Origin: Ignavibacteriales bacterium CG18_big_fil_WC_8_21_14_2_50_31_20
GTDB taxonomy: Bacteria; Bacteroidota; Ignavibacteria; Ignavibacteriales; Melioribacteraceae
Direction: 5' to 3'
Length of the DNA stretch: 39,445 nucleotides
NCBI GenBank assembly: GCA_002786785.1
Contig: PCUD01000079.1
Location: 1 to 39,445 of the forward strand
Below the pieces are notes generated by a model, which saw only the letters and a program-made list of their open reading frames with translations, had not been told where the DNA came from and did not search any database. Every line of letters starts with the position of its first letter. The stretch's first letter is position 1. Made by a program: the position numbers and the translations under genes. This document shows, piece by piece, positions 1 to 14,899 of this stretch.

Positions 1-3000
1 TTTTGCTATCATTTACAGAAAGAATAAGCACAATATCGGATTGTAAATCATCAAGATAAATTGCTCCGCTGTTATTTCCAAGCTCAGTTTGTTTAATTAC
101 AACACTATTTAACTTAAGCGAATCGCTATTAGTAAAATATGAAGGAACAATACTCTTCAACTTCCAGCCCGTCCAATTTATGGTATCTACCACAATTTTT
201 TCAATTGACGAATTATCGTTAACAAACCAATATTCCAAAACATTTTGCGAATTATCACCATAAATCCAAATACCAAAATCAATATCGGTAGATAATTTAG
301 GAAAGCCATTGTTGGAAGTTCTGCAAACGGCGTCAATTCCTAAAAATTTATATGCAAGTTTACCGGAATATTTGCCATTTTTAAATTTTGCATTACTAAT
401 AATAAATTGTGATAATAAATTATCCAATCCAACACTATTTTCTGTTTCAGTTGGATTTGACCAACCCGAATTGCTTTCAAAAGTGTCGTAAATAGTTCCA
501 GTAACGTATTTATTTGCTTCGGTTATAAAAGTAAATTCAAAATTTTGGTTTAAAGTAAGTCCTTTTGTATCGCCAACTTTTTCGGAAAGAACAATTTTAT
601 AAACGCTACTTTCGGCAAGTGGATTTGCTGGAGAAAATTTCACCTTTCCGCTTGCGTATTCTGATTGGTCAACAGAAATTTGAATATTATTTCCGTCCGA
701 ATCTTGAAACAACACATTTCCTGGAAGCGTTAATGATGAAATTGCTCCGTCAAAGGATAAAATTATATCTGGTTTTATGCTAACATTTCGACTTTCATTT
801 TCTGGATAAACCGAATTTAATGAAAGCGAATTCCGTTCTGTTTTAAAACTAAAAGTAACTTTCGAATTTAATTTTACTCCGCTTAAAGAATTTGCAGAAG
901 TATCAACAGCTACAAAATAGTTTGTGTTTGCTTCAAAAATGCTATTTGGTTTAAAGGTAAGAATCGTATTTTCACTGTTCCAAAGAAAAACTCCATTTAT
1001 TTGTGGAACAATTTGAATTGCATTTTCAACCGAAGCTCCATCAACTGGTTTATTAAACTCAAGCACAATTGAAGCATCAACTGAAATATTGCTCTCGTTA
1101 TTTTCTGGAAAAAGACTAACAATTTGAAGTGGAGTGTTGAATAATGTTAAATTATCAAAAAATAATGTTCCACTATTTTTTCCACTTACTGCTTGTCTAA
1201 TTGCAAATGAGTTAAATTTAAGCGAGCTAACATTTTCTATTGATCCCAAATCAAATGTTCTAAACTTCCAACCTACCCAATTAATTGTTCCCTGAAATCC
1301 CATTAAAAGGGTTGAGTTTTGGTCGGTAAACCAATATTGAAGAATTGATTCGCTATTATCACCAAAAACCCATATTCCAACCGAGTTTTCGTTGTGTAAA
1401 TCCAACACAAGTTCGGGCGAGTAAAGTATGCGAGTATATCCACCACTTGAAGTGGTAAATTTATAATCAAGTTTTGCCGAATTACTTCCAGAAAAAACGT
1501 TTTCGTTGCCAATAGTCATAAAAGTTGCGTTTGCATCGACTCCGCTGGTTAACATTTGCCAATCATTAATGGCTTCAAAATTATCTAAAACACTTCCAAC
1601 AACATCAAAAGATTCGCCAGTTGTAAATGTAATTTTGGTATTTTGGTTTGATAAAATTCCGTTTGCCCCCTCAATTCCATTATAAATAATCATTGAATAA
1701 GTGCTGTTTTCTTTCAACTTTTGGGTTGGAATAATTGTAACAGTCCCATCGGCACATTTGGATAAATCGTAATTTATTAAAAGTGGAAATCCCGAATTAT
1801 CAAAAAGCTGAATTTTACTTTCAACCGTAAAAGGATTTACTTCGCCATAAAAGTTAATTTGTGGATTTACAGAGGTGCTAACATCGGTTTCGTTATCGGC
1901 GGGATAAGTATTAACAATTTTAAGTGTGCGAGTGTAGCGAGCAGTAACGCCCCAAACTACAGGAGTTATTGTAATGTGACCTGTATTTGCATCCGCCCAA
2001 TCGTAAATTGCATTTTTTCCGTTAAGAATTCCACCATAATTTCCAGCATTTTTATCACCGTAAGGATCGTTGCAATATAAAGAATGTCCATCGCCATATT
2101 GTCCAATTGCCACAACAATATGTCCATCGGTTAAACTTGTAGTGCAAAGCATGTAAGGAAATTCCATATCCAGTTCAGCTTTTACTTTTGCCCAAGTAAT
2201 TGAAGCCGAGTGAGTCGCATCAATTCCGTGCTTTTCAAAAAACTCTTCACTATTGCTATTTGGACTTCCGTTATTCCACATATATCCATGAGCACCGCTT
2301 GTAAAACCGGGATTTCCATTAGGGTTAATAGTAAAATTATTATATGTATAGTTGTTATAAGTATAAACATCCGATAAATATTTTCCATATTGACTTGTAT
2401 AGCCGTGAGTATAAATTGGGTCTGGTGGCAAAATATTGTAAGATGCAATTATTTCCATTGCACTTGTTGCACCGCAAGCCAGATAACCTTGATGGCGTCC
2501 ATTTACTGGATCTTTAATCCACGGACCAGAATCTCGCGAGCTAAAAACCTGATGAATGTGCTGCCATTGCTCAAGTCCTTTAATCTGATCTGGATTTTCA
2601 AGCTTATTGTTGGAATAAAAAATATTGGCTTCAAGATTTTTTTCAAGTCTAAATATTGTCTCAGAATTTGATTTTGAATTTATTTGAATAATTTCGTTAT
2701 TGCTATAATTTTGGTAAATAATATTTCCATTTTGGGAATAATTTGGGTTCATCTCAAATGAGTTTTGTGAATCAGTAATTTTGGATAATTCGCTTTTTTC
2801 GATATTGTATTCAAATATGTCAGAATTTATTAGTCTCACATTTTCAAAATCGATTTCTTTGTTAAAAAATACGATTGATTTTGAATCACTTTTCCATTTT
2901 GGATTTTCACCATTGCCCACAAAAGATATGTTTTGAGAATTTAAATTGTACAAATTGATTTTTGCATCAACTGATTGAAATGCGAGCATTAAATTATTTG

Positions 3001-3580
3001 GCGACCATGTAGCGTTAAAATACTCAATTTCGCCATCTGATATTTTTTGAATTGACTGACTCTCTAAATCCAAAATACTCAGTTCACTTTGCTCATTTGA
3101 AAAAACAACTGATTTTCCGTTTGGCGAAATAGTTGCTCTATTTGTGTAAAATCCAAAATCAAATTTTATTGCTTCATTACCATTTATTATGAACAATTCA
3201 TTTTCAATTGTAAACGCAATTTTGTTGTTGGAAGAAAAAGAAACTTGACCAGAATTTTTAACAAAATCAAAAAGCTTTGTAAAAGTCCGTTTCTCCAAAT
3301 CGTAAATTGCTGGCGCTTGCAATTTGGTTTTTGAATCAATCAGCTTAAAGCCAATAAGCTGTCCGCTTGGCGAAACTTGAATATATCTTCCACAACCAGG
3401 AGCAGAAATAAGTTCTTCCAAATTTCCGTTATTCAAAAGATATAATGTTGATTCAAAATTATTTGTTAGCAAAATTCCGTGAGGAGTTTCAATTGGATTT
3501 ATTAAATATATTTCGTTTTTATCTTTAGCTATTAAATTGCTAAAACAAAGCATTAAAAATGCAACAAGAATATTTTTCAT
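1..3580 (-). CDS. Large exported multidomain protein: beta-propeller, C39-like cysteine protease, Ig-like and CBM-like modules (C-terminus beyond left edge)
   Basis: The frame is open from an ATG at 3580 to the window edge, about 1193 residues with no stop, so the C-terminus is missing. Residues 1-18 form a signal peptide (MKNILVAFLMLCFSNLIA), so the protein is secreted or surface-bound. Residues ~20-320 have repeated WD40/TolB-like strands (SPNGKSVVF, SPSGQLIGF). Residues ~345-545 look like a C39-type papain-fold peptidase: LACGATSA carries Cys369, DGHIVVAIG carries His487, and CNDPYGD carries Asp505, a complete putative triad. SbsA/Big_5-like Ig domains start near 550, 817 and 918 (each opens like YPADNETDVS or FPENNESNIS). 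Two copies of a ~150-residue CBM-like module lie near 661-812 and 1025-1190 (shared GIWV/GIWIYGDNS and FFDNL/YLDDL motifs). A cell-surface or extracellular peptidase is inferred; the substrate is unknown. Confidence 0.85.
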   Translation of the reverse strand, partial: MKNILVAFLMLCFSNLIAKDKNEIYLINPIETPHGILLTNNFESTLYLLNNGNLEELISAPGCGRYIQVSPSGQLIGFKLIDSKTKLQAPAIYDLEKRTFTKLFDFVKNSGQVSFSSNNKIAFTIENELFIINGNEAIKFDFGFYTNRATISPNGKSVVFSNEQSELSILDLESQSIQKISDGEIEYFNATWSPNNLMLAFQSVDAKINLYNLNSQNISFVGNGENPKWKSDSKSIVFFNKEIDFENVRLINSDIFEYNIEKSELSKITDSQNSFEMNPNYSQNGNIIYQNYSNNEIIQINSKSNSETIFRLEKNLEANIFYSNNKLENPDQIKGLEQWQHIHQVFSSRDSGPWIKDPVNGRHQGYLACGATSAMEIIASYNILPPDPIYTHGYTSQYGKYLSDVYTYNNYTYNNFTINPNGNPGFTSGAHGYMWNNGSPNSNSEEFFEKHGIDATHSASITWAKVKAELDMEFPYMLCTTSLTDGHIVVAIGQYGDGHSLYCNDPYGDKNAGNYGGILNGKNAIYDWADANTGHITITPVVWGVTARYTRTLKIVNTYPADNETDVSTSVNPQINFYGEVNPFTVESKIQLFDNSGFPLLINYDLSKCADGTVTIIPTQKLKENSTYSMIIYNGIEGANGILSNQNTKITFTTGESFDVVGSVLDNFEAINDWQMLTSGVDANATFMTIGNENVFSGSNSAKLDYKFTTSSGGYTRILYSPELVLDLHNENSVGIWVFGDNSESILQYWFTDQNSTLLMGFQGTINWVGWKFRTFDLGSIENVSSLKFNSFAIRQAVSGKNSGTLFFDNLTLFNTPLQIVSLFPENNESNISVDASIVLEFNKPVDGASVENAIQIVPQINGVFLWNSENTILTFKPNSIFEANTNYFVAVDTSANSLSGVKLNSKVTFSFKTERNSLSLNSVYPENESRNVSIKPDIILSFDGAISSLTLPGNVLFQDSDGNNIQISVDQSEYASGKVKFSPANPLAESSVYKIVLSEKVGDTKGLTLNQNFEFTFITEANKYVTGTIYDTFESNSGWSNPTETENSVGLDNLLSQFIISNAKFKNGKYSGKLAYKFLGIDAVCRTSNNGFPKLSTDIDFGIWIYGDNSQNVLEYWFVNDNSSIEKIVVDTINWTGWKLKSIVPSYFTNSDSLKLNSVVIKQTELGNNSGAIYLDDLQSDIVLILSVNDSK

Positions 3581-3609
3581 TTTTGATTTCTTTCAATTAT
3601 AAATATTTA

Positions 3610-3617
3610 CAAAGATA
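3610..3617 (-). promoter_or_regulatory. Bacteroidota-type -7 promoter element (TATCTTTG)
   Basis: On the minus strand the sequence reads TATCTTTG, an exact match to the TAnnTTTG -7 consensus of Bacteroidota primary sigma factors. It lies about 30 bases upstream of the ATG at 3580. The -33 box is not clear (TTTG occurs at a shorter than ideal spacing). It would drive the large exported protein separately from the upstream TPR-like gene. Confidence 0.45.
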
Positions 3618-3678
3618 ACCCAATACAAATTCAAAAGAAATTTTAAAATGCGTCATTTGAAAGAGAAAAAGATGGAAT

Positions 3679-5115
3679 TTAATTTTGCTTATATTTTGTT
3701 TCTAAATCTTCCAATCTAAATGTCAATTTGTTATAATCGGCTTCTTCAATTTTTTTAATAAGAATTCTTGCTTTGTCCAAATGAATATTTTCTTTTAAGT
3801 AAACATCTAACTGAAATCTTAAAGCAAGTGTTTTGTTTCTTTTATCTGCAGATATTTCAGCGTTCTCAAAAAATGGCAATGCTTCAATTGGTTTATTCTG
3901 TTGAAATAAAGCAATTCCTTGAAGCAGATTAAATTCAGCTATGTAATATTTTTCCAAAAACTTAGGTTGTTTTAAAATGAGTTTGTTGAAAGCAGAATAA
4001 TTTTCCGTTGCTAAAAGTGTTGTGAGTTTGTAGATGTATTTTGATTCAGCTTCGTTTTTTAAGTCAAGTTCAAATAGGGCAGCATAAAAATCATTTAGCT
4101 TAGATTTATATATTTTAATTGCATCTGGGTTTTTGTTTAACCAATTGGTGTAAACACAATAATATTTTGTGTGTTCAATTATTCCTTTCCAAGTGTTAGG
4201 ATTTTGGAATGCACAATTTGCATGTTTGGCAGAGGAATCAACTTGGTTGGTAATAAAATAGTATTTAGCTTTTACAAAATTATCAACAATGCCATAATTA
4301 TCATTTTTGATTTTAGTACTAACTTTTTTTGCTTGGGTTAGATTCAAAAGAGTGTGGCAATACCAATTTAAAACTCTTTTGTTTTTGGGATATATTTTAA
4401 TAAACTCTTCAAAAAAACCAATTGCCTTGTTGGGATTGTCTTCCATAACCGTATTTATTTCAATTAACATTAAAAGCGCTTGTGCATAAACTAATTTGGA
4501 GTTTTTTACTGCAAGATTTATAAAAGTTATTCCCTCATTTCTGTTTCCAGAAACGCCAAGTATTGAAGCAATAAAGCCAGTAAATCCGTTTAGGCGAGCG
4601 GCATAGTAACTAAAAACTCCTGGATATAAATAAGCATCGTAACATTCTGGAAATTCATCAATTATATCTTCAAACATTCCATTGGCTTTTATTCCATTTA
4701 CATAAGCAGCCCACCACGAGCCATTTAATCCCGCATAACGCGAATAATATCCGTGCAGCGAAGCAATATAAAAACGATTAGTTGGAGTGATAGGAATATC
4801 GTTTAAAATTTGAATTGCGTCTTCAAGCTTTGCAATTGATTCATTTACAAGAATTTCACGCAGTGAATCTCGTCCATTTATTGAAGAGAGGTTTATTTTT
4901 TCATGCAACTCTAAAGCATCTGAGCTAAAATAGTGGAAATAATATTTGGGATTTTTTTTGTCTAATTTAATTAACGAATCACAAATACTTTTAACTTTTT
5001 CGTACTCATCATTGTAAGTTAAAGCGATTAGCTTTTTATCTAATGAATCTACTTTAAGAAAATTTTGAGAAAAAATTGTTGAAGAGAGGAAAAGAAATAT
5101 CCATATATTTTTCAT
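3679..5115 (-). CDS. Exported TPR-like (alpha-helical repeat) protein
   Basis: About 478 residues when started at the ATG at 5115. An in-frame ATG at 5157 would add 14 residues (MSICFFYYYFGYEF) in front of what is plainly a signal peptide (MKNIWIFLFLSSTIFSQ), so 5115 is preferred. The mature part is built of helical segments resembling tetratricopeptide repeats, for example KAIGFFEEFIKIYPKNKRVL and KPIEALPFFENAEISADKRN near the C-terminus. No catalytic motif was recognised. It is probably a periplasmic or surface scaffold protein. It precedes the large C39-like protein by 98 bases on the same strand and may be functionally linked to it. Family assignment beyond TPR-like is not possible by eye. 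Confidence 0.75.
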   Translation of the reverse strand: MKNIWIFLFLSSTIFSQNFLKVDSLDKKLIALTYNDEYEKVKSICDSLIKLDKKNPKYYFHYFSSDALELHEKINLSSINGRDSLREILVNESIAKLEDAIQILNDIPITPTNRFYIASLHGYYSRYAGLNGSWWAAYVNGIKANGMFEDIIDEFPECYDAYLYPGVFSYYAARLNGFTGFIASILGVSGNRNEGITFINLAVKNSKLVYAQALLMLIEINTVMEDNPNKAIGFFEEFIKIYPKNKRVLNWYCHTLLNLTQAKKVSTKIKNDNYGIVDNFVKAKYYFITNQVDSSAKHANCAFQNPNTWKGIIEHTKYYCVYTNWLNKNPDAIKIYKSKLNDFYAALFELDLKNEAESKYIYKLTTLLATENYSAFNKLILKQPKFLEKYYIAEFNLLQGIALFQQNKPIEALPFFENAEISADKRNKTLALRFQLDVYLKENIHLDKARILIKKIEEADYNKLTFRLEDLETKYKQN

Positions 5116-5221
5116 AAACTCATAGCCAAAATAATAATAAAAAAAGCAAATACTCAATGTGGAAAATAAGAAAATAATAATTAACTTTTGATTAAAGATA
5201 AAAACACAAAATGAGGTCGAG

Positions 5222-7675
5222 ATGGAAAATCTTTTTTCAAATAGTATTACAAACGAAGAACTTTTTGAGAACCTTTATTTTTCTAAAAATGAAAAAGACA
5301 TAGAAAAAGTAATAAACACTTATTCAGAAATTTTCATGCATGAAAATTGGTTTCCACTTAATGGAACTGAAAATAATTTTGGAACTGTTGAAAATCAACA
5401 AGCATCTCCAATACCAGCATTAATTGAAAAAATAACAAATTCAATTGATGCTATTTTGACGAAAAAGTGTATTGAAGCTGGAATTGATCCGAAGTCTAAG
5501 GACGCGCCTCGAACAATGGAGAAAGCAATTGAATTGTTTTTTCCCGACCATAAAAAATGGGATTTGTATTCATTTCGCAAGACTCAATCAGAAGAGATTC
5601 AAATAATTGCAGATGGTCCTAGGATGGATACCTCGTTAATTATTTATGATAATGGAGAAGGACAGCATCCAGAAGATTTTAATAAAACATTTCTTTCTTT
5701 ATCGCGTGGAAACAAAAATGAAATTAAATTTGTCCAAGGGAAATATAATATGGGCGGAAGCGGTGCAATAGTATTTTGTGGCAAAAACCGATATCACTTA
5801 ATTGCATCCAAAAGATTTGACAAGACGGGGAAATTCGGATTTACATTAATCAGAAAACATCCTTTTACTGAGGAAGAAAAAACGACAAAAAAGAACACTT
5901 GGTATGAATATTTAACTGTAAATAAAGAAATTCCATCGTTCGAAATTGAAGCATTAGAATTAGGACTCTATAATAGAAAATTTATAACAGGGACAATTCT
6001 TAAGCTATATTCTTATGATCTACCTTCTGGTGCTCGTTCTGTGATTTCAAGAGATTTAAATCAAAGTATAAATGAATATTTATTTGAACCAGCATTGCCG
6101 TGTTATACAATTGATAAACATCAAAGATATCCAGACGATAGAAATTTGGAAAGAGATTTATATGGTTTAAAAAGACGACTTGAAGACAACAAGGGAAAAT
6201 ATGTTGAGGATTATTTTCTTGAAACATATGATGACAAAAAAATAGGAAATCTAAAAATTACTTGTTACGTTTTTAAAACAAAAATTGATGATAAAAAAGC
6301 GAAGGAAAGTAAGGAGGCAATTAGGAGAGAGTTTTTCAAAAATAATATGTCCGTTCTTTTTTCTCAAAATGGACAGGTTCAAGGATACTTTACGTCTGAG
6401 TTTATTTCAAAAACATTAAAAATGCAATTTTTAAAAGACTATTTGCTCATTCATGTTGATTGTACAAACCTTGAATACGAGATTCGCTCTCAACTTTTTA
6501 TGGCTTCACGTGATAGATTGAAGAATGGAGAAGAAACTGCTCTGCTGAGAGAAACGATAGGCAAAGTATTGTTAAAGAGTAAACTTGTAGAGATAAACAA
6601 AAAACGCAAAGACTCTATTTCCTTTGCTAGTGAAGATAAAAATGAATTGTTAAAATCCTTTACTAAAAACTTACCACTCAAAAGTGATTTATTGAAATTA
6701 CTTAATAGCACATTCAAACTTGAAGATAATAGTCCAAAACCAGAAAAGAAAAAGGATAAAGGAAAAAAGCCTAAGGGGAAGGAAAAAGAATTTAATCCAA
6801 AACGATTTCCTTCATTCTTTAAGTATGGAAAAGATGGGACTATGGATAAACCAATAATTAAAATACCTCTAGGCGGTGAGAAAACAATAAGATTTAGCAC
6901 AGATGTTGAGAATGATTATTTTGTAAGAGTTGAAGAACCAGGCGAGTTGGAGGTTGGAACATTAAAGCAGAATGAAAACGAAACTGAAGGTGGAAGAAAA
7001 CCAGGAGAACCCAAAAAGATAGAAGAATTATTTTATGTTCAAAAAAGTAATCCACAAGATGGTACGATAAAAATAGTTTTTGCACCAACTGAAGATGTTA
7101 AGATTAATGATACCGTTGAAATTAAAGCTACATTGTCAAATCCTGGAAATGACTTTGATCAAATCTTTCTTGTTAAAATTGTTGAACCAGAACATAAAAA
7201 GGAAAAAGTTAAAAAAGAAGAAAATGATGAAGATAATAAAATAGGTTTACCAGAATTAATCTTAGTATATAAAGAAAAGACGGAAAATGAAGATAGACGA
7301 ACGTGGGCTGACTTGGATGAAAATGGAATACCTATGGAGTTTAATACAATTGTGCACCCAATGGCAGAAGCTGATGTTTTGGAAACTATATTTGTAAATA
7401 TGGATAGCAATGTTTTGAAAAATTACAAATCAACTTTGAAGTCTGAAGAACAATATGAGCTAGCAGAAAAACGGTACTACACTTCTGTCTATTTTCATAC
7501 GTTGTTTTTATTTACAATAAGTAAAAATAAAAAGTATTCTATGAGGCAAACAATAGGTGAAGAAGAACAAGACCGTGATTTAGTAGAATATGTAAAAGAT
7601 GTATTTGAAAGCTACTACGCCCAATTCCTACTCAACTTTGGAATTGAGCAGTTAGTTGATAGTTTGGATGGGTGA
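5222..7675 (+). CDS. GHKL (HSP90/MORC-like) ATPase, candidate defence effector
   Basis: The 817-residue protein carries the Bergerat ATP-binding fold. The N-box holds Glu69 and Asn73 in LIEKITNSIDAI, the G1 box is Asp143 in DNGEGQ, and the G2 box is GKYNMGGSGA at 173-182. This arrangement fits MORC, HSP90 or MutL-type ATPases, which dimerise on ATP binding. Residues ~490-520 form a Lys/Glu-rich linker, ~530-660 look beta-rich, a second charged linker follows (KEKVKKEENDEDN), and a helical C-terminal domain ends the protein. No nuclease motif was recognised. A weak Shine-Dalgarno (GAGG) precedes the ATG. The gene runs towards the kinase gene; its TGA ends at 7675 and the kinase stop begins at 7676. 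Prokaryotic MORC-like ATPases are known from defence islands; a role here as sensor or effector is inference. Confidence 0.8.
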   Translation: MENLFSNSITNEELFENLYFSKNEKDIEKVINTYSEIFMHENWFPLNGTENNFGTVENQQASPIPALIEKITNSIDAILTKKCIEAGIDPKSKDAPRTMEKAIELFFPDHKKWDLYSFRKTQSEEIQIIADGPRMDTSLIIYDNGEGQHPEDFNKTFLSLSRGNKNEIKFVQGKYNMGGSGAIVFCGKNRYHLIASKRFDKTGKFGFTLIRKHPFTEEEKTTKKNTWYEYLTVNKEIPSFEIEALELGLYNRKFITGTILKLYSYDLPSGARSVISRDLNQSINEYLFEPALPCYTIDKHQRYPDDRNLERDLYGLKRRLEDNKGKYVEDYFLETYDDKKIGNLKITCYVFKTKIDDKKAKESKEAIRREFFKNNMSVLFSQNGQVQGYFTSEFISKTLKMQFLKDYLLIHVDCTNLEYEIRSQLFMASRDRLKNGEETALLRETIGKVLLKSKLVEINKKRKDSISFASEDKNELLKSFTKNLPLKSDLLKLLNSTFKLEDNSPKPEKKKDKGKKPKGKEKEFNPKRFPSFFKYGKDGTMDKPIIKIPLGGEKTIRFSTDVENDYFVRVEEPGELEVGTLKQNENETEGGRKPGEPKKIEELFYVQKSNPQDGTIKIVFAPTEDVKINDTVEIKATLSNPGNDFDQIFLVKIVEPEHKKEKVKKEENDEDNKIGLPELILVYKEKTENEDRRTWADLDENGIPMEFNTIVHPMAEADVLETIFVNMDSNVLKNYKSTLKSEEQYELAEKRYYTSVYFHTLFLFTISKNKKYSMRQTIGEEEQDRDLVEYVKDVFESYYAQFLLNFGIEQLVDSLDG

Positions 7676-8647
7676 TTATTTAGGAATTGAATGTTTTGCG
7701 TGAATACTTAATAAGACTCTTTCTATATCCAATAATTCAGGTCTATTCTGCTTAGAATACTTTAACATATTATTAATTAAGACAAACAACTCATTATCTT
7801 TTATCTCAAAATCTGATTCATGCAAATTACCAATTGGTAAATTAGATTGAAATACATACCAAAACATCTTTCCTAATTGAAAAATATCTGACTTAAAGTC
7901 AATTTTACAATCAAAGCTAAATTCTAATTTCTTCTTTTCAGTCAGGACTTTATTCATTACTTCAGGAGACAACCACCCATATGGGCCAATTTTTTCATTT
8001 TCAATATCAATTGATTTTTCTTCATCTTGATGTGCTGCGAGCCCAAGGTCTCCTATTTTTAAATTTCCATTACAAAAAAGAATGTTGTCGCTTTTGATAT
8101 CTCTGTGGAAATACTTTAAACTATGAAGCTTAATGAATGCTTTTGTAATGGTTATACATAGTTCAATTTTATCAATAAGTTCTAAACGTTTATTTTCTAT
8201 TAGATTCGTTAGATCTTGTTCAGCATATTCCATTAAGTAATATTTATAAGAAAACTCACGAAGGGGTGATTTACTAGAAGGTCGTTTCTTTATTATTACT
8301 TCTCCTGAATCAAATATTTCAATAATATTCTGAATGTTTTTTTTCTTGCAGTCAGTTAAAACAGCAATTTCATAATTAAAGCGTTTTAGCCTAGTATTTT
8401 CATAATAATAAAATTTACATATCTTCATAACCAACGAGGGGACACTATCAACGATATCCTCACTAATTTTTGATAAGAGTAAGATATATGAATTTCCACC
8501 TTTTTCAATAATATTTGTTATTACTAGATCATCACCATTAATATTAATTATATTCTTCTCTATTTCTTCTGAGAGAATAAAGCGGTTTCCTTGGATAGTA
8601 CAGCCATTGGGTAGTCTTAATCTAGTTGACATCAAAAAACTCGACAT
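7676..8647 (-). CDS. Serine/threonine protein kinase, last gene of Ssp-like defence operon
   Basis: 323 residues forming a single eukaryotic-type kinase domain with no transmembrane segment, so cytoplasmic. Visible motifs: beta-3 lysine in VMKI (Lys75), alpha-C glutamate in NYEIAVL (Glu93), catalytic loop HRDIKSDN (181-188, Asp183 and Asn188), metal-binding DLG (Asp200) in place of DFG, and LSPE (226-229) as the APE equivalent. The glycine-rich loop is poor (EKGGNSYILLL). All key catalytic residues remain, so activity is expected. The frame overlaps the DUF262 gene by 26 bases from this ATG, or by 11 bases if translation starts at Met6 (8632); either implies translational coupling. Kinases occur in several phage-defence systems; the substrate here (DUF262 protein, GHKL ATPase or a phage protein) is unknown. 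Confidence 0.85.
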   Translation of the reverse strand: MSSFLMSTRLRLPNGCTIQGNRFILSEEIEKNIININGDDLVITNIIEKGGNSYILLLSKISEDIVDSVPSLVMKICKFYYYENTRLKRFNYEIAVLTDCKKKNIQNIIEIFDSGEVIIKKRPSSKSPLREFSYKYYLMEYAEQDLTNLIENKRLELIDKIELCITITKAFIKLHSLKYFHRDIKSDNILFCNGNLKIGDLGLAAHQDEEKSIDIENEKIGPYGWLSPEVMNKVLTEKKKLEFSFDCKIDFKSDIFQLGKMFWYVFQSNLPIGNLHESDFEIKDNELFVLINNMLKYSKQNRPELLDIERVLLSIHAKHSIPK

Positions 8648-9743
8648 TATAAAAACTGTTTAATTCTTCCCAACTAAAAGTAAAGAACTGTTCAACTTTA
8701 ATTAAGCTTAAGTGAATTTTGGGCACTTCATACTCTTCTAAATAAAATGAAATAATATCTTCTTGTTCTTTGTTTGGAGAAGAATTCTGATTCATTAAAA
8801 TGTTTTTTAAAATTTTATATCTTTTTTCTCTAGCTGATTTTGAATTGGATTGACTAACACAATTAATAGCATATTCTCTTAGAATTTCAGAGTTGTCATT
8901 TGAGGGTGTAATTTCTTTACCAATTAAAACTATGATTTTATAAAATTTATTTAGAATATTTTGTTCTATCGTATTTTTATAGATTAATGAGAAGAGGGTA
9001 TAAAAATCATTTTTTTGTCGAAAGCGTGTCTTATTTAGTGGGAAAATATCATTTAGAATTAAAATTTTGTTAAGAATCTCAATAAACTTATTTTTAATAT
9101 TTGATGATTCCTTGTCTGAAATATCATTCTTGAATAATATGTTAACCGCATCTTTTTTATCGGTAAAATCAAACTTTATTAGACTAACAATTTCTTCAAC
9201 AAAATCACGATCATTCATTCTCACTATTGTCTGATTACTAAATAAATCTAATTTTTTTAGCTCTTCACGTTGAGTTAAATCTTCCACTAATTTTAAAAAT
9301 TTTGTTTTAATAAACTTTGCTTTATTTAATTCTGGACGATTTAGACTTTTCCCAAGGTTATTAACGCGGTAATAAAATTCTTCTAGTGAATCAGCCGAAT
9401 CTAATTGAGTAATTATTGCTATTGGTAAAAGGTATGATTTAAAATTCGGGAAATCATCTTCTGAATAAAATTTTCCACTTTTGTCACTGATTAATTTCTT
9501 AATAAATTTTAATAGTGTTCTTGTCCTCTGTTGTCCATCAATCATTTCATAATTATTTTTACTACTTTCATAGATAAAAAGTGTCGGCAAAGGATAACCC
9601 TTAATGATTGATTCAATTAATTCCTCTTGATCTGTTGGACTCCAAACAAAATTTCTTTGAAAAGGAGGGTTAAGCAATAGTCTCCCATTTTCAACAACGT
9701 CTAGAAGTTTTTCAATTGACCACTTTTCAATTGAATATTTCAT
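8622..9743 (-). CDS. Stand-alone DUF262 (GmrSD/SspE N-domain-like) protein
   Basis: 373 residues. The N-terminal third is a clear DUF262 domain: PPFQRNFVW at 26-34 and DGQQR at 69-73, the ParB/Srx-like nucleotide-binding motif of this family. In GmrSD and SspE proteins DUF262 acts as an NTPase module that senses or gates, and a DUF1524 HNH nuclease follows. Here the remainder (ending NSFYNVEFFDVN) has no recognisable HNH pattern, so this is a DUF262-only form. It starts 12 bases after the stop of the SspD-like gene, with a purine-rich stretch (GGAGGAATG) at the start, and overlaps the kinase gene downstream. It is placed where sspE commonly sits, so a modification-sensing effector role is inferred. 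Any nuclease step would have to come from a partner. Confidence 0.85.
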   Translation of the reverse strand: MKYSIEKWSIEKLLDVVENGRLLLNPPFQRNFVWSPTDQEELIESIIKGYPLPTLFIYESSKNNYEMIDGQQRTRTLLKFIKKLISDKSGKFYSEDDFPNFKSYLLPIAIITQLDSADSLEEFYYRVNNLGKSLNRPELNKAKFIKTKFLKLVEDLTQREELKKLDLFSNQTIVRMNDRDFVEEIVSLIKFDFTDKKDAVNILFKNDISDKESSNIKNKFIEILNKILILNDIFPLNKTRFRQKNDFYTLFSLIYKNTIEQNILNKFYKIIVLIGKEITPSNDNSEILREYAINCVSQSNSKSAREKRYKILKNILMNQNSSPNKEQEDIISFYLEEYEVPKIHLSLIKVEQFFTFSWEELNSFYNVEFFDVN

Positions 9744-9755
9744 CCATTCCTCCTT

Positions 9756-10871
9756 TTATACAAAACACGCATTACAACCAACACCTTCTGCTTCTATTAA
9801 TGTATCAATAAGAAATTCAGAAGATTGGTTTTGTGCTTGTCTTTCCGTTTTTTTTATATAATCTAATTTTATTTGTCTAATTCTTTCTGGTTTAATCAAA
9901 TCAGTTAGTTTTTCGTCTGACATCCAAGTAAAGCCATCTTTTTCATACTCAAGAGATTTGTTAAAAAGCTCACGATGTTGCTCGTAAAGCCAAACCCACT
10001 CAATTTTTTGTTGAAAGAAGCAGAAAAAGCAACCAGAACGGCTACGTGAGTAATATCCTTTTTGTCCATCAACCTCAAACTCAACTTTTTTATAATAAGC
10101 AGGAACGCCAACACCACTTTTTTCTAGTAGTGCAAATATATCATTTCTGTTTAACCCATCTTCATTATCGACTAAAGGAAAAACATCTTCATATGAAAGA
10201 GGCAAGTTTTTATCTTTTAGAGAGTTAAACACAATTTGGTTAAATTCTTTAATTCCAACTGTAAGCAAGTCATTCAGTTTTCTTTTTTGAGGATAACTTT
10301 CAGTTACATCTTTTAGTATTAAATCTGTAAAAATGTCAACAGAACCATTTTTTAGTGTATCAAGTGCAATCTCCGCCATAAAGAGTTTATTCGAATTACT
10401 TAACACACTTCTTATAACATCTTCACTCCAGATGTTTTTTCTAAATGGGAAAATAGATTGTATGTTTTCCTTCTTTGAAATGTAACCTTCTCTATCTTCA
10501 TCGTTTCTAATTCCAACATAAGAAATTGAGAGTTCATTTTTCACAACATCGTTTTCAAATGGTTCTAATTTCAATTTTTTAGTACACCAACGTGCTTGAG
10601 CAGAAGGTAAATATCCACCATACGAATTTAAGAAGTGATCAAAAGGGTTATCAAAATGAGAATTTTTAGCCGCTTTTATTCTAAGAATTTTTTTTCCAAG
10701 GTATGATTCAATGTTTTCTAGTAATGTGTAAGTATCATCAAGTTCTTTGCCTGTATCACTAAAATAATATTCAACAGGTAAAGTTGGATATTTGTCATGT
10801 AAATATATTGCCAAAGCAGCACTGTCTTTACCACCACTAATACCAAGCAAATGTTTAACTTTTTTAGTCAT
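9756..10871 (-). CDS. sspD: SspD/DndC-like PP-loop ATP pyrophosphatase (PAPS reductase family)
   Basis: 371 residues. The PP-loop SGGKDS sits at 12-17, the signature of PAPS reductase and ATP-pyrophosphatase enzymes that adenylate a substrate before sulfur transfer. Further family features are ARWCTKKLKLEPFE (Cys96) and SGCFFCFF (Cys281, Cys284), followed by a WxxLxxxHRELFNKSLEYEK helix typical of DndC-like proteins. A C-terminal CNAC (Cys366, Cys369) could complete an iron-sulfur site, as DndC is known to bind a 4Fe-4S cluster. It overlaps the upstream ATPase gene by 8 bases. Neighbours DUF4007 and a large ATPase match the sspB-sspC-sspD order, so phosphorothioate insertion into DNA is the likely job. 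The symbol is by family and context, not by alignment. Confidence 0.75.
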   Translation of the reverse strand: MTKKVKHLLGISGGKDSAALAIYLHDKYPTLPVEYYFSDTGKELDDTYTLLENIESYLGKKILRIKAAKNSHFDNPFDHFLNSYGGYLPSAQARWCTKKLKLEPFENDVVKNELSISYVGIRNDEDREGYISKKENIQSIFPFRKNIWSEDVIRSVLSNSNKLFMAEIALDTLKNGSVDIFTDLILKDVTESYPQKRKLNDLLTVGIKEFNQIVFNSLKDKNLPLSYEDVFPLVDNEDGLNRNDIFALLEKSGVGVPAYYKKVEFEVDGQKGYYSRSRSGCFFCFFQQKIEWVWLYEQHRELFNKSLEYEKDGFTWMSDEKLTDLIKPERIRQIKLDYIKKTERQAQNQSSEFLIDTLIEAEGVGCNACFV

Positions 10872-13800
10872 CTAGTTCATCTTTCAATAAAGTTAAAAGT
10901 AAAGATATTCTTTCGTTTTTATCTTTTATATTTTTGAAATTATCAACAAATAAATTGTCAGAATTATGAAGAATTTTAGGAACCCTAATTATTTCGCTCC
11001 TCAATCCATCACGAATGGAAGTTATCTCAACTTTTACAGCATCTTCCTTTTGAATATCTATGTCTAAATTAGTAAAATCGGAGAGATTATCAAACTCCTT
11101 TTTTGTTTTTGAAAGGGTATCGTAAAAAATTTCTTCATCTTCATCTTCAAACTTTTCAGGTTGTTTCCCAATTAGTCCTTGCGCAAAAGATGTAATCCAT
11201 GCTTCACGTTCATCTAACTCAGAATTTATACGTTGAAGAATAATCTTTTGTTTTGGTAATAAAGAGAATTTACGAATAGATTTATATCTGTTTTGTATTA
11301 AAACTTTATATTCAGGAAAGACAATGTCACTAAAATCAAATTCTTTAATAATGGCTTCTTCAATTCTGCTAAGAAGAGCAGGATAACTCAATTGAAGCTC
11401 GTTGATACAGTTTTTTAATTTTGCAAAATATTTTTCAATTATTTTTGTGTTTTCATTAAAAAGATTAGTTGTGTAACCTAAAGCACTTGGAAATTCAACA
11501 AAAAAAATATTTTCAGGATCTTTTGCATTTGTTATTGCATCCCTTAGATCAATAGTCTTTTGATTTAATCTAAGAGTTTGTTTGCTGTAATATGTCAAGG
11601 ATTTATGTAAAATTAGAAAAGGTTTTATTGTTTCAATAAAATTAACTTTGTCTCCAATACCACCTTCATGAGCATTAATAAGTTTTCGATATTTATTAAA
11701 AAAGTCTAATTTAATTCCACCAAGGTCAAATGATTTCAAAAAATAATCTGAAGGTTTTTTAAGAATTAAGTCAATTGTTTCTGTACTAATTTCAGAAACA
11801 AATTTTTCTCCATAAAAAAGTGCAAAATCATTCCTTTTTATAAAAATCCAAACCGTCAACCAGACATCAATAAAACCATTTTTTAAACCAAACGGTTTTT
11901 CCGATAGAAGCTCAATTAGAGATAATATGCTTTTGCGTGTTGCTTTACTTTCAAAAAGAAAATTATCCATTTTTCCCCAAAGTGGTTGAAATGACGGTTC
12001 AGTGGGTGTATCAAAATAAAAATTTGAATCTTTTCCTTTATGAATACCTGTTGATTTTAATAGTGTTAAATAAATTGTTTTTTCTGGTGGAAACTTATCT
12101 TTAAGAAATCCAAGATTTGGTTTATTCCAATTGTTTATCAACTGTGTTAGTAAATCTCGTTTTGCTTTATTAATACTTCCTGAAAGAGACATTCTGTTAA
12201 TTAATTCGTTTTTATAAATAGGAGCATTGAAATAAATTGCATTGCAAACATTGGAGATCATTCTGTTAAATTCAGTTTTACTTGTAACTTTAATTTCTGC
12301 ACCATTATAAATCCAAGTAATATTTTTATTTTGTGTAAAAAGAGACTGAACTAAAAATTGGTTTAGTTCTTTAATATGAAATTCTTTGAGTTTTAACAAC
12401 TCTTTCCGAGCAACACTATCCTCACCAATCTCATTTGAAATTACAAAATTTACTTTTTCAATTTCTCTAATATGTTCTATGACTAAATTTTTGTCTTTAA
12501 TATGAATAAAAATTATTTGATCATTCAAAGAAGAAGATAAAACAATTTTATTTGCTCTTATTTTTTCGTTAACCACAATATTTATTGAGCCATCAAAACG
12601 AGCATCCGCTTTATCTGTTAATGGTTTCTCTGTAATAATGTAGTTAAAATATCTTGGTGTTCCAGTACTATAAAAATGTTCACTTGCAAGGACAGGAGGA
12701 ATACCAAAATATTTTTCCACATAGCTTGACAAATTTTGAGATATTGTAATTTTATGCTCGGCACTTTTAACTAAAAAGTCTAAATCTAAATCTGTTCCTT
12801 CAAACAACACATAAGAATCACGAAAATTTTGAAACCTAATTATTTTATGTTTTTCTAATTTTTTTAAATAAGAATCTATGTTTTTATATTCGTGTGTGAT
12901 TGAAAGGTAATGAGTCAAAAAGGAATTATTTATTTTTGCACCTGCTTTACTAAAGATAGAAAGAATACCTATGGTTTTTATAATTCCTTCAAAAATCTCT
13001 ATTTCTTCATCAAAATTTTCATGTACCCTTTGTAATGCTGTACTCACAGATTGCCAATTGATAAAGTCACTATTGTATTTACTAGTTAAATAATAATAAA
13101 AACTAGATACTAAATAGTCGTAAACATCAATTAAGTTTATATATGGTTTTTTATCATTGTTTATTTGTGAAGTATTTGTGTTTAGAAAAGTAAATAATGA
13201 TCGCTCATTTTGCCCATATTTTTGTAATGCAAGCGTAAGTGTTGCAATAGATAGAATATCATGTGGATATAGCTTTCTGGCGATTTCAAAATTAATTAAT
13301 TTTAATTGATAAGCTCCTGAATCGCGAATGCATTGCAATAAATCTCTTTCCCTCGGAATTTCTTTTTTTCCATTGTTTATCTTTTTTGCCGCCAATAACA
13401 GAAGTTGTTCAACTGGCTCATTAAATAGTACATGGTGAAATCTTCCTTTAACTTTACTCCACTCGTCTTTTTGAATATTAGCCAAACCATTTGAGTAACT
13501 ATCAAAAGCCTGATGAAGAGTTGTAATCAGCATTATATCTTTTGAGTGATCGTTAACAAATTCTGCTAATCTTTGAATGTCTGATAATTCTTTTTCAGGA
13601 TTGGTTTTTGCTGAATATTCTAGAATTTTTCCAAATTCATCAATTAATATTATGGTGTGAAAATTTTCAATTCTATTCTTTTTATATCTTTTTTCAATAG
13701 ACGTAATAAAATCGTTACTAATAGGTTCTTTTAGATTTGAGTTTATTAGATTACCAATTGCCTCGTAGTATCCTGTTATACTAATTGTTTTATATTGGTT

Positions 13801-14046
13801 GTTGCAAAATATATTTAATTCACTATTGAAGAAAATTTCTTTGTTCTCAAGCTGTTTCTGAAAAGCTAACAAAAAGGAAGATTTTCCAGTACCAAAAGAA
13901 CCTATTAGTTCAAAGGAGTGAACCCCTTTTTGGATATTACGTTCAATGGAATTAAAGATTAATTCTGTATTTGGCGTAGAGAAATATTCTATTTTATTTA
14001 AGAAATCTCTTTCAATATTTATTGACGGTGTAAAGTTATTTTGCAT
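10864..14046 (-). CDS. sspC: SspC-like large P-loop ATPase of phosphorothioation operon
   Basis: 1060 residues, cytoplasmic. Walker A is GSFGTGKSS at 49-57 (Lys55) and Walker B is IILIDEFGK at 132-140 (Asp136, Glu137). The DEFGK pattern and the following helical region resemble STAND/AAA-type ATPases. The remaining ~850 residues are mostly helical with no catalytic motif recognised; an acidic stretch (EKFEDEDEEIF) lies near the C-terminus. The ATG overlaps the end of the DUF4007 gene by 11 bases and the stop overlaps the PP-loop gene start by 8, so the three are translationally coupled. SspC is the ATPase of the SspBCD single-strand phosphorothioation machinery. Assignment rests on size, motifs and position. 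A BREX BrxC/PglY-like ATPase is the main alternative. Confidence 0.7.
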   Translation of the reverse strand: MQNNFTPSINIERDFLNKIEYFSTPNTELIFNSIERNIQKGVHSFELIGSFGTGKSSFLLAFQKQLENKEIFFNSELNIFCNNQYKTISITGYYEAIGNLINSNLKEPISNDFITSIEKRYKKNRIENFHTIILIDEFGKILEYSAKTNPEKELSDIQRLAEFVNDHSKDIMLITTLHQAFDSYSNGLANIQKDEWSKVKGRFHHVLFNEPVEQLLLLAAKKINNGKKEIPRERDLLQCIRDSGAYQLKLINFEIARKLYPHDILSIATLTLALQKYGQNERSLFTFLNTNTSQINNDKKPYINLIDVYDYLVSSFYYYLTSKYNSDFINWQSVSTALQRVHENFDEEIEIFEGIIKTIGILSIFSKAGAKINNSFLTHYLSITHEYKNIDSYLKKLEKHKIIRFQNFRDSYVLFEGTDLDLDFLVKSAEHKITISQNLSSYVEKYFGIPPVLASEHFYSTGTPRYFNYIITEKPLTDKADARFDGSINIVVNEKIRANKIVLSSSLNDQIIFIHIKDKNLVIEHIREIEKVNFVISNEIGEDSVARKELLKLKEFHIKELNQFLVQSLFTQNKNITWIYNGAEIKVTSKTEFNRMISNVCNAIYFNAPIYKNELINRMSLSGSINKAKRDLLTQLINNWNKPNLGFLKDKFPPEKTIYLTLLKSTGIHKGKDSNFYFDTPTEPSFQPLWGKMDNFLFESKATRKSILSLIELLSEKPFGLKNGFIDVWLTVWIFIKRNDFALFYGEKFVSEISTETIDLILKKPSDYFLKSFDLGGIKLDFFNKYRKLINAHEGGIGDKVNFIETIKPFLILHKSLTYYSKQTLRLNQKTIDLRDAITNAKDPENIFFVEFPSALGYTTNLFNENTKIIEKYFAKLKNCINELQLSYPALLSRIEEAIIKEFDFSDIVFPEYKVLIQNRYKSIRKFSLLPKQKIILQRINSELDEREAWITSFAQGLIGKQPEKFEDEDEEIFYDTLSKTKKEFDNLSDFTNLDIDIQKEDAVKVEITSIRDGLRSEIIRVPKILHNSDNLFVDNFKNIKDKNERISLLLTLLKDELDD

Positions 14047-14899
14047 AATATTCTCTTAGTACTTCCCACTTATCAATTTTGTTTTTTATTTGAATTTCTT
14101 TAATACCAGAATCTTCTTTAAAAACTACATTACTATACAAATTCTGAATAGCTAATAGTTTTTTGTACAATCCATCTTCGCTAATTAAAAAGCAATTACC
14201 TACAGAATTATTTTTAGTTAGTACATTATAAAAAGAGATGGAATCAGAATCAATAAATTGATCTAGTATTGCAAATAGTATTATTTCGATTGGAATCTCT
14301 TGCCTATCGTTTATGACAACATGAAAATTATCGCTTCCAGAAAGACCAACTTTGTCAAGAATGTTATTTTCAATAAAAATACCAGAAAATTCATCCTCTA
14401 AGTTTTTTTCTTTCTTGTTGTTCATTGTGTAGTTTCGTAGAAATACCGCCAAATCCTTTTCTAATGTAGCTTTATTATAGTTGTAATTTTCTAGGTTACA
14501 CTTTTGGACAAGGGTATTTAACAGACTTTTTAAATCATAATCAAGCTTTTCTTTTTTTAATTCGTTGAAAAACAAATTATAAATGCTTGCATAGTTTGAG
14601 TTTATTAAATTATAGTGTAGCAACCAGGTGGTTGCAGGGTTTTCAAGAAATGGGTCGGCACCAGTTTCACCAAAAATAAATTCACCAAACGGGCTTATCT
14701 GTTTGTCTTCCTTTAATATTCCAAATGCCATTAACCAATAATGAATAGAAGAAACCATGTTTTTACCAACGCCAAGTTCTACAACAGCATTTAGACTATT
14801 AAAGTTTCCATTGTTTTTAACAAAATCAAAGCCTTTTTTTAGCCAGATTTGTCTGCAGTTAAATGATTCGTGTCCATAAAATTTATATTTATTGCTCAT
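14036..14899 (-). CDS. sspB: DUF4007 protein, SspB-like
   Basis: 287 residues. The N-terminus has the characteristic DUF4007 layout: FYGHESFNCRQIWLKKGFDF, then VVELGVGKNMVSSIHYWL (helix-turn-helix-like), then a KEDKQISPFGEFIF stretch and DPFLENPATTWLLHY. DUF4007 proteins occur beside DndC-like PP-loop enzymes. In Ssp systems the DUF4007 protein SspB is described as the DNA-nicking member that permits single-strand sulfur modification. It is the first gene of the defence operon and its ATG lies only 7 bases after the stop of the DUF4412-like gene. No promoter is seen in that gap, so transcription may start within or upstream of the preceding gene. Family recognition is good; the exact SspB role is inferred from context. 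Confidence 0.75.
   Translation of the reverse strand: MSNKYKFYGHESFNCRQIWLKKGFDFVKNNGNFNSLNAVVELGVGKNMVSSIHYWLMAFGILKEDKQISPFGEFIFGETGADPFLENPATTWLLHYNLINSNYASIYNLFFNELKKEKLDYDLKSLLNTLVQKCNLENYNYNKATLEKDLAVFLRNYTMNNKKEKNLEDEFSGIFIENNILDKVGLSGSDNFHVVINDRQEIPIEIILFAILDQFIDSDSISFYNVLTKNNSVGNCFLISEDGLYKKLLAIQNLYSNVVFKEDSGIKEIQIKNKIDKWEVLREYYAK

Follow-up and report, generated by a model that had tools for sequence, protein, structure and literature searches.

The gene at the start of a 39,445-base stretch of DNA from Ignavibacteriales bacterium CG18_big_fil_WC_8_21_14_2_50_31_20 (assembly GCA_002786785.1) probably encodes a propeller-covered cysteine peptidase of this Ignavibacteria bacterium (family Melioribacteraceae) that would be exported by the type IX secretion system (T9SS), as judged from sequence and modelled structure. 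The stretch, hereafter the window, comprises bases 1-39445 of the 63,973-base contig PCUD01000079.1, in a genome of 3.81 Mb divided among 182 contigs. The gene spans positions 2-3580 on the minus strand and reads for 1193 codons from its ATG, with no stop codon before the window ends. Because the contig end cuts the gene at its 3' end, the assembly lacks the C-terminus; L004, a member of the same genus and the closest relative (72% identity), is complete at 1287 amino acids (aa), so that about 90 aa would have been lost from the window protein. A complete form of about 1290 aa hardly merits the word "giant" used in an initial annotation of this DNA. From the N- to the C-terminus, the chain is built of a β-propeller, a papain-fold C39-like peptidase domain, and a region of three Big_5 domains and two modules of about 150 residues that resemble carbohydrate-binding modules (CBM-like). 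In the list that follows, pLDDT and pTM denote the predicted local distance difference test and template modelling scores, and rows are those of the family alignment described below.

2..3580, minus strand: propeller-C39-Big_5/CBM gene, 1193 aa, 3' end cut at the contig end (open reading frame (ORF); complete relative L004)
3524..3580, minus strand: probable Sec signal peptide, residues 1 to about 19, no cleavage-site prediction (hydrophobic N-terminus by reading; helix 4-14 of low pLDDT)
2606..3511, minus strand: N-terminal β-propeller (WD40/TolB-like), residues ~24-325 (PD40 match; pLDDT mostly 90-98; VIA-align Z 21-25 to propellers)
1931..2575, minus strand: C39-like papain-fold peptidase domain, residues 336-550 (PF13529, 31.7 bits; pLDDT 93.2, pTM 0.92; VIA-align Z 13.1 to the PCAT1 C39 domain)
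2549..2551, minus strand: Gln344, expected oxyanion-hole residue (80 of 80 rows, by selection, the scan pattern having demanded QV)
2474..2476, minus strand: Cys369, expected nucleophile, first residue of helix 369-380 (80 of 80 rows; DSSP)
2120..2122, minus strand: His487, expected general base, first residue of strand 487-494 (80 of 80 rows; DSSP)
2066..2068, minus strand: Asp505, expected third triad residue, directly after strand 500-504 (77 of 78 rows reaching it; DSSP)
1625..1918, minus strand: Big_5 domain 1, residues ~555-652, approximate bounds (Pfam Big_5 stretches; position by sequence reading)
1148..1603, minus strand: CBM-like module copy 1, residues 660-811 (self-match; homologous L005 module matches CBM_11 and Lyase_N above cut-off)
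839..1138, minus strand: Big_5 domain 2, residues 815-914 (Pfam)
503..829, minus strand: Big_5 domain 3, residues ~918-1026, approximate bounds (Pfam Big_5 stretches)
44..505, minus strand: CBM-like module copy 2, residues 1026-1179 (self-match)
11..1138, minus strand: Big_5-Big_5-CBM tail scaffold, common to exported amidases (tail searches and tail tree)

The peptidase domain, its propeller, and the probable route of export

A Pfam scan of the window protein returned Peptidase_C39_2 at residues 369-507, PD40 at 22.7 bits (cut-off 20.9), and three Big_5 stretches (E 1.2e-37), in keeping with the propeller, peptidase, and three Big_5 domains of the initial annotation. The Peptidase_C39_2 profile (PF13529) scored 26.0 bits with the whole protein and 31.7 bits with the domain alone (cut-off 24), and it was found at E <= 0.01 in 71 of 77 family members; the whole-protein score of L004 (28.0) lies above the cut-off and those of L005 (21.3), L006 (15.4), L007 (21.4), L008 (23.7), and L012 (23.1) lie below it. 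Peptidase_C70 (PF12385) also exceeded its cut-off of 19, with 19.4 and 23.0 bits, and reached E <= 0.01 in 16 of the 77 members, being outscored by Peptidase_C39_2.

AlphaFold gave a confident model of propeller and peptidase together (pLDDT 91.4, pTM 0.90), the best VIA-align row of which was an S9 enzyme (8wt1, Z 25.3); for propeller residues 23-304, alignments were obtained with seven-bladed propellers, WDR5 among them (Z 21.8). As the fold searches with the full model listed only propeller-containing chains, the peptidase domain was modelled alone, with the scores listed above, and a peptidase fold was obtained, as the initial annotation had proposed. The best VIA-align rows were the C39 domain of PCAT1 (8vp5, Z 13.1, 2.5 Å over 131 residues) and ComA (3k8u, 12.8), followed by PeiR (8z4h, 12.7), a C39-like entry (3erv, 12.3), SpeB (4d8b, 12.2), and interpain A (3bba, 11.2). 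Papain-fold entries, with staphopain and phytochelatin synthase (6tho) among them, were aligned at Z 9-13, and a family absent from the rows for the full model or the domain is not thereby excluded.

The putative triad Cys369/His487/Asp505, correctly numbered from the outset, was followed in an alignment of the window protein with 79 relatives. Cys369 and His487 are invariant, one row has Glu in place of Asp505 and two rows are cut before that position, and relatives with as little as 24% identity to the window protein still have the triad. Taken from fold, secondary structure, and conservation, the three residues would be expected to cluster as a catalytic triad. The invariance of Gln344 and Val345 is a matter of selection, since the pattern used to find the relatives required QV. 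A second cysteine before the catalytic His, Cys479 (2144-2146), is present in 74 of the 80 rows, with Leu in the other six.

The resemblance to PCAT1 and ComA, the closest folds, and the order Cys, His, Asp, which is that of MEROPS C39 peptidases, bring to mind the classical C39 function, namely the processing of double-glycine leaders during export by ATP-binding cassette (ABC) transporters. This function is nevertheless extremely improbable here and was rejected: no ABC transporter domains were found by Pfam in the window protein, which has a propeller in front of the peptidase domain and Big_5 domains behind it, an ABC-type ATPase ORF lies in the flanks of only nine loci, and the T9SS tag of the relatives places the protein outside the cell. 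The comparison with double-glycine peptidases drawn in the initial annotation concerns another branch, the MEROPS C39 peptidases of ABC transporters, whereas the domain here matches Peptidase_C39_2. From the latter, as represented by 3erv, the window protein differs in carrying the domain behind a propeller in one chain and in belonging to a family with mostly T9SS-type tails.

The joining of propeller and peptidase extends well beyond the window. A scan of genome_contigs with a single peptide pattern, ...QV[YWF]D[TS], by which relatives without the pattern are missed, yielded 95 propeller-C39 loci, and the family counts rest on the best 80 of them, labelled as Bacteroidota, Ignavibacteria, Neomarinimicrobiota, WOR-3, Delongbacteria, KSB1, Planctomycetota, and others. 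Propeller and C39 domain occur in one chain in 80 ORFs at the scanned loci, the window included, and no C39-only ORF was found there. In a propeller tree, the fused propellers (n=78) group in a single clade that excludes the 40 stand-alone ones (SH-aLRT 100). The pairing, present in dozens of bacterial species, therefore appears to be old and stable, being single-chain throughout and tracing to one clade of fused propellers. The fused protein, counted as a match over propeller and C39 domain, was found in 16 of 58 genomes, the present one included and two of them cut by contig ends, and in nine of 79 genomes around a Muribaculaceae genome (L095, itself included); it is thus patchy but widespread. 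No relatives were found in viral_contigs (tblastn, 0) or in plasmids (0), leaving a spread by plasmid or phage without support. Nor is there a conserved operon, the commonest neighbour cluster being present at nine of the 81 sequences (80 loci and the window). Searches of the published literature gave no description of a propeller-C39 fusion, the titles and abstract openings consulted being silent on the architecture.

The export claimed in the initial annotation is supported by the relatives. TIGR04183, the type A T9SS sorting domain, ends all six complete relatives scanned (6/6) above the curated cut-off, and the T9SS tag was found in 50 of 73 tails scanned from the wider family. The genome of the window itself encodes SprA (TIGR04189, 796.8 bits) and has 134 T9SS tag matches. 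A T9SS in Ignavibacteriota is named as possible in a published report (PMC11285876). With so many tagged tails and 95 loci in several phyla, an exported architecture of this kind can no longer be called unusual, as it had been.

Several observations weigh against a T9SS-exported, propeller-gated cysteine peptidase and should be given fair consideration. The window protein itself, being cut by the contig end, has no T9SS tag; the missing C-terminus, whose retrieval had been suggested in the initial annotation as a way to the tag, was sought in the bacterium's own assembly and not identified, the best match (70%) lying in another ORF of 661 aa. Foldseek with the C39 domain alone was weak, giving one match at E <= 0.001 (best 5.4e-4), and a profile of the domain matched no sequence in the Protein Data Bank. 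The propeller, furthermore, is cast as a gate solely by analogy to S9 peptidases.

A T9SS-exported, propeller-covered cysteine peptidase nonetheless remains the best explanation, and its working may be pictured as follows. The protein would leave the cell in two steps, first by Sec and then by the T9SS, and would either stay on the cell surface or be set free from it; the lost residues most likely include the T9SS sorting domain. Cys369, His487, and Asp505 would serve the papain-fold C39-like domain in cutting peptide bonds, and Gln344 would be expected to contribute to the oxyanion hole. The propeller at the N-terminus is predicted to sit on the peptidase in a fixed arrangement, and it most likely screens or gates what enters the active site, much as S9 peptidases of the prolyl oligopeptidase type, such as 8wt1, carry an N-terminal propeller before the peptidase domain; the S9 catalytic domain is an α/β hydrolase with a catalytic Ser, whereas that of the window protein would be a papain-fold, C39-like domain with Cys. 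The Ig-like Big_5 domains and the CBM-like modules may together act as a stalk for binding to glycan or to material of the cell wall.

A tail in common with exported amidases

The two modules at residues 660-811 and 1026-1179 are clearly repeats, matching each other at E 5e-28 and 35% identity, with an alignment score of 241 vs a maximum of 63 in 500 shuffles. The repeat of the initial annotation thus stands, but the Pfam scan of the window protein named no CBM family; it was only in L005 and L029, both relatives, that CBM_11 exceeded its cut-off, and the L005 counterpart of the module matched Lyase_N at 46.7 bits and CBM_11 at 39.5 bits, both above cut-off. "CBM-like" is therefore a fair but indirect description, since the families are matched in the relatives' module and not in that of the window protein.

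Searches with the Big_5-Big_5-CBM tail (residues 815-1190) matched C39 proteins and other T9SS-tagged ORFs. Among the 59 non-C39 tail proteins scanned (46 + 13), Amidase_3 was found in 37 + 1, Amidase_2 in 8 + 8, and GHL10 in two, so that 54 of the 59 carry Amidase_3 or Amidase_2; the remainder consists of the two GHL10 proteins, L149, which resembles an amidase by phmmer alone (2e-6), and two proteins that start at a contig edge and have no N-terminus, namely L141 and, by elimination, L165. The tail set was drawn from matches over the greater part of the tail or over the two Big_5 domains, with some weaker matches added, and since many single-Big_5 matches were left out, "almost only amidases" holds for the whole tail and not for Big_5; L150, L153, L154, and L164, having no tail match, stand outside the 59, and L150 and L153 are Amidase_3 proteins with Big_5 all the same. 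With this scope, the tail is by sequence comparison shared almost only with T9SS-tagged peptidoglycan amidases, which is a new finding. In a tree of 44 tails (nine from C39 proteins and 35 labelled amidase, L141 included), the C39 tails occupy two positions among those of the amidases, and the starred branches force at least two changes between C39 and amidase; the window protein and its Melioribacteraceae relatives stand among amidases of their own family, and the C39 proteins of family f2 in the other half.

GHL10 we take to be the Pfam family of E. coli DigH. DigH has been described as a hydrolase of denuded peptidoglycan glycans (PMC12288456). At two loci (L151, 3169-8491; L152, 691-6056), GHL10 glycosidase-like proteins with Big_5 adjoin T9SS-tagged Amidase_3-like genes, as if glycosidase and amidase were exported together.

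The amidases resemble the window protein at the front as well. In 43 regions, 35 of 38 Amidase_3 genes (L149-L155 not being counted) are immediately preceded on their own strand by a homologous propeller gene, mostly of ~300 aa, the gap between the two genes ranging from -29 to 34 bases, stop codon not counted; the three exceptions are L124_2 and L139, with 58 and 45 bases of upstream sequence, respectively, and L140, with 1730 bases without a propeller gene. The paired propellers have signal peptides or lipoprotein-like starts and, by eye, no T9SS tag. The present genome holds such a pair at L023 (propeller 5108-6037, amidase 6048-8459), with the Big_5-Big_5-CBM tail and the tag on the amidase. 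The two enzyme types, as the propeller pairs and the tail homology indicate, thus share a propeller relative in front and a tail behind, spread over two genes in one case, where the propeller lacks the tag, and joined in one chain in the other; the catalytic domain of Amidase_3 and Amidase_2 is that of a zinc amidase. At several loci (L027, L110, and L132-L135), a second, lipoprotein-like propeller gene is present, and at L023 a T9SS-tagged GH18 glycosidase (1415-3883) lies ~1.2 kb upstream of the propeller-amidase pair. A recent recombination of the propeller from an amidase pair was considered and rejected, fused and solo propellers forming separate clades.

Candidate substrates

A narrower form of the best explanation, on the doubtful side but worth stating, would make the enzyme a peptidoglycan specialist that cuts peptides of the stem or the cross-bridge in peptidoglycan from foreign or dead cells, beside T9SS-exported amidases with the same tail. 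The preponderance of amidases among the tail proteins, the at least two placements of C39 tails among amidase tails, and the propellers upstream of most Amidase_3 genes (two of the three exceptions having less than 60 bases of upstream sequence) all speak for it. So does the presence among the top folds of PeiR, a cell-wall endoisopeptidase whose substrate is archaeal pseudomurein, and which shares the papain-like fold (2.7 Å over 132 residues) but only 15% identity. At L095 (7001-15762), moreover, one strand carries in a row the fused gene, a solo propeller gene, and an amidase gene. This order was not repeated in eight regions from relatives of L095, two of which (L171 and L173) hold little or no downstream sequence, although one (L169) has a propeller-amidase pair ~5.5 kb downstream of the fused gene. 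Against a peptidoglycan specialist it also counts that the fused gene lacks a recurrent neighbour, that its propellers and the amidase-paired ones belong to separate clades, and that most tails of the wider family are of other kinds (Golvesin_C in 54 of 73, Big_5 in eight of 73, and also PKD, fn3, CUB, and SprB repeats); a common tail may, after all, only mean a common surface anchor. That the window protein acts on peptidoglycan peptides is a reasoned guess from the shared tail.

The same variety of tails is what would be expected of a general surface enzyme, and the appearance of SpeB, interpain, and staphopain among the fold neighbours, along with the wealth of T9SS tags in the host genome, fits a scavenger that degrades environmental proteins for nutrition, its tail serving as a generic T9SS stalk. 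Such a role is a tentative but real possibility, somewhat at odds with the tails of the close family and its sister family, which are those of amidases and not a random T9SS assortment.

It is improbable, although conceivable for a fold to which isopeptidases and transferases belong (the rows above feature PeiR and phytochelatin synthase), that the protein acts as an isopeptidase, transpeptidase, or maturation protease, trimming or joining exported proteins of its own cell that its propeller would recognise. The fused gene has no conserved partner gene, and the patchy presence of the family in both genome sets speaks against a core housekeeping step.

Surrounding genes and significance of the family

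Upstream of the peptidase gene, on the same strand (3679-5157, minus strand), lies a gene for a TPR-like exported protein of at most 492 aa with weak Pfam TPR matches. It is followed at 5222-14899 by a block that resembles a defence island, with DUF4007, a PAPS-reductase-domain protein, GmrSD_N, a protein kinase, a HATPase-like protein, and a 1060-aa protein with a weak AAA match, which we take to be reminiscent of phosphorothioation-type systems.

At its widest, the interpretation would be that cysteine peptidases gated by a propeller make up a widespread and undescribed family, the papain-fold equivalent of the propeller-gated S9 peptidases, and that in Ignavibacteria this family would belong to an exported peptidoglycan-dismantling kit together with propeller-paired amidases and GHL10 glycosidases, the C39 enzyme cutting the peptides and the amidases freeing them from the glycan; taken as a whole, this is rather unlikely. 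If the propeller does gate a papain-type site, the gating principle known from S9 peptidases would have been put to use a second time, and independently, and if the link to peptidoglycan holds true, Ignavibacteria and their relatives would export a matched wall-degrading set with one tail, by which other cells or their remains may be consumed. At a minimum, dozens of proteins that now bear only loose domain labels would gain a named architecture and testable residues.

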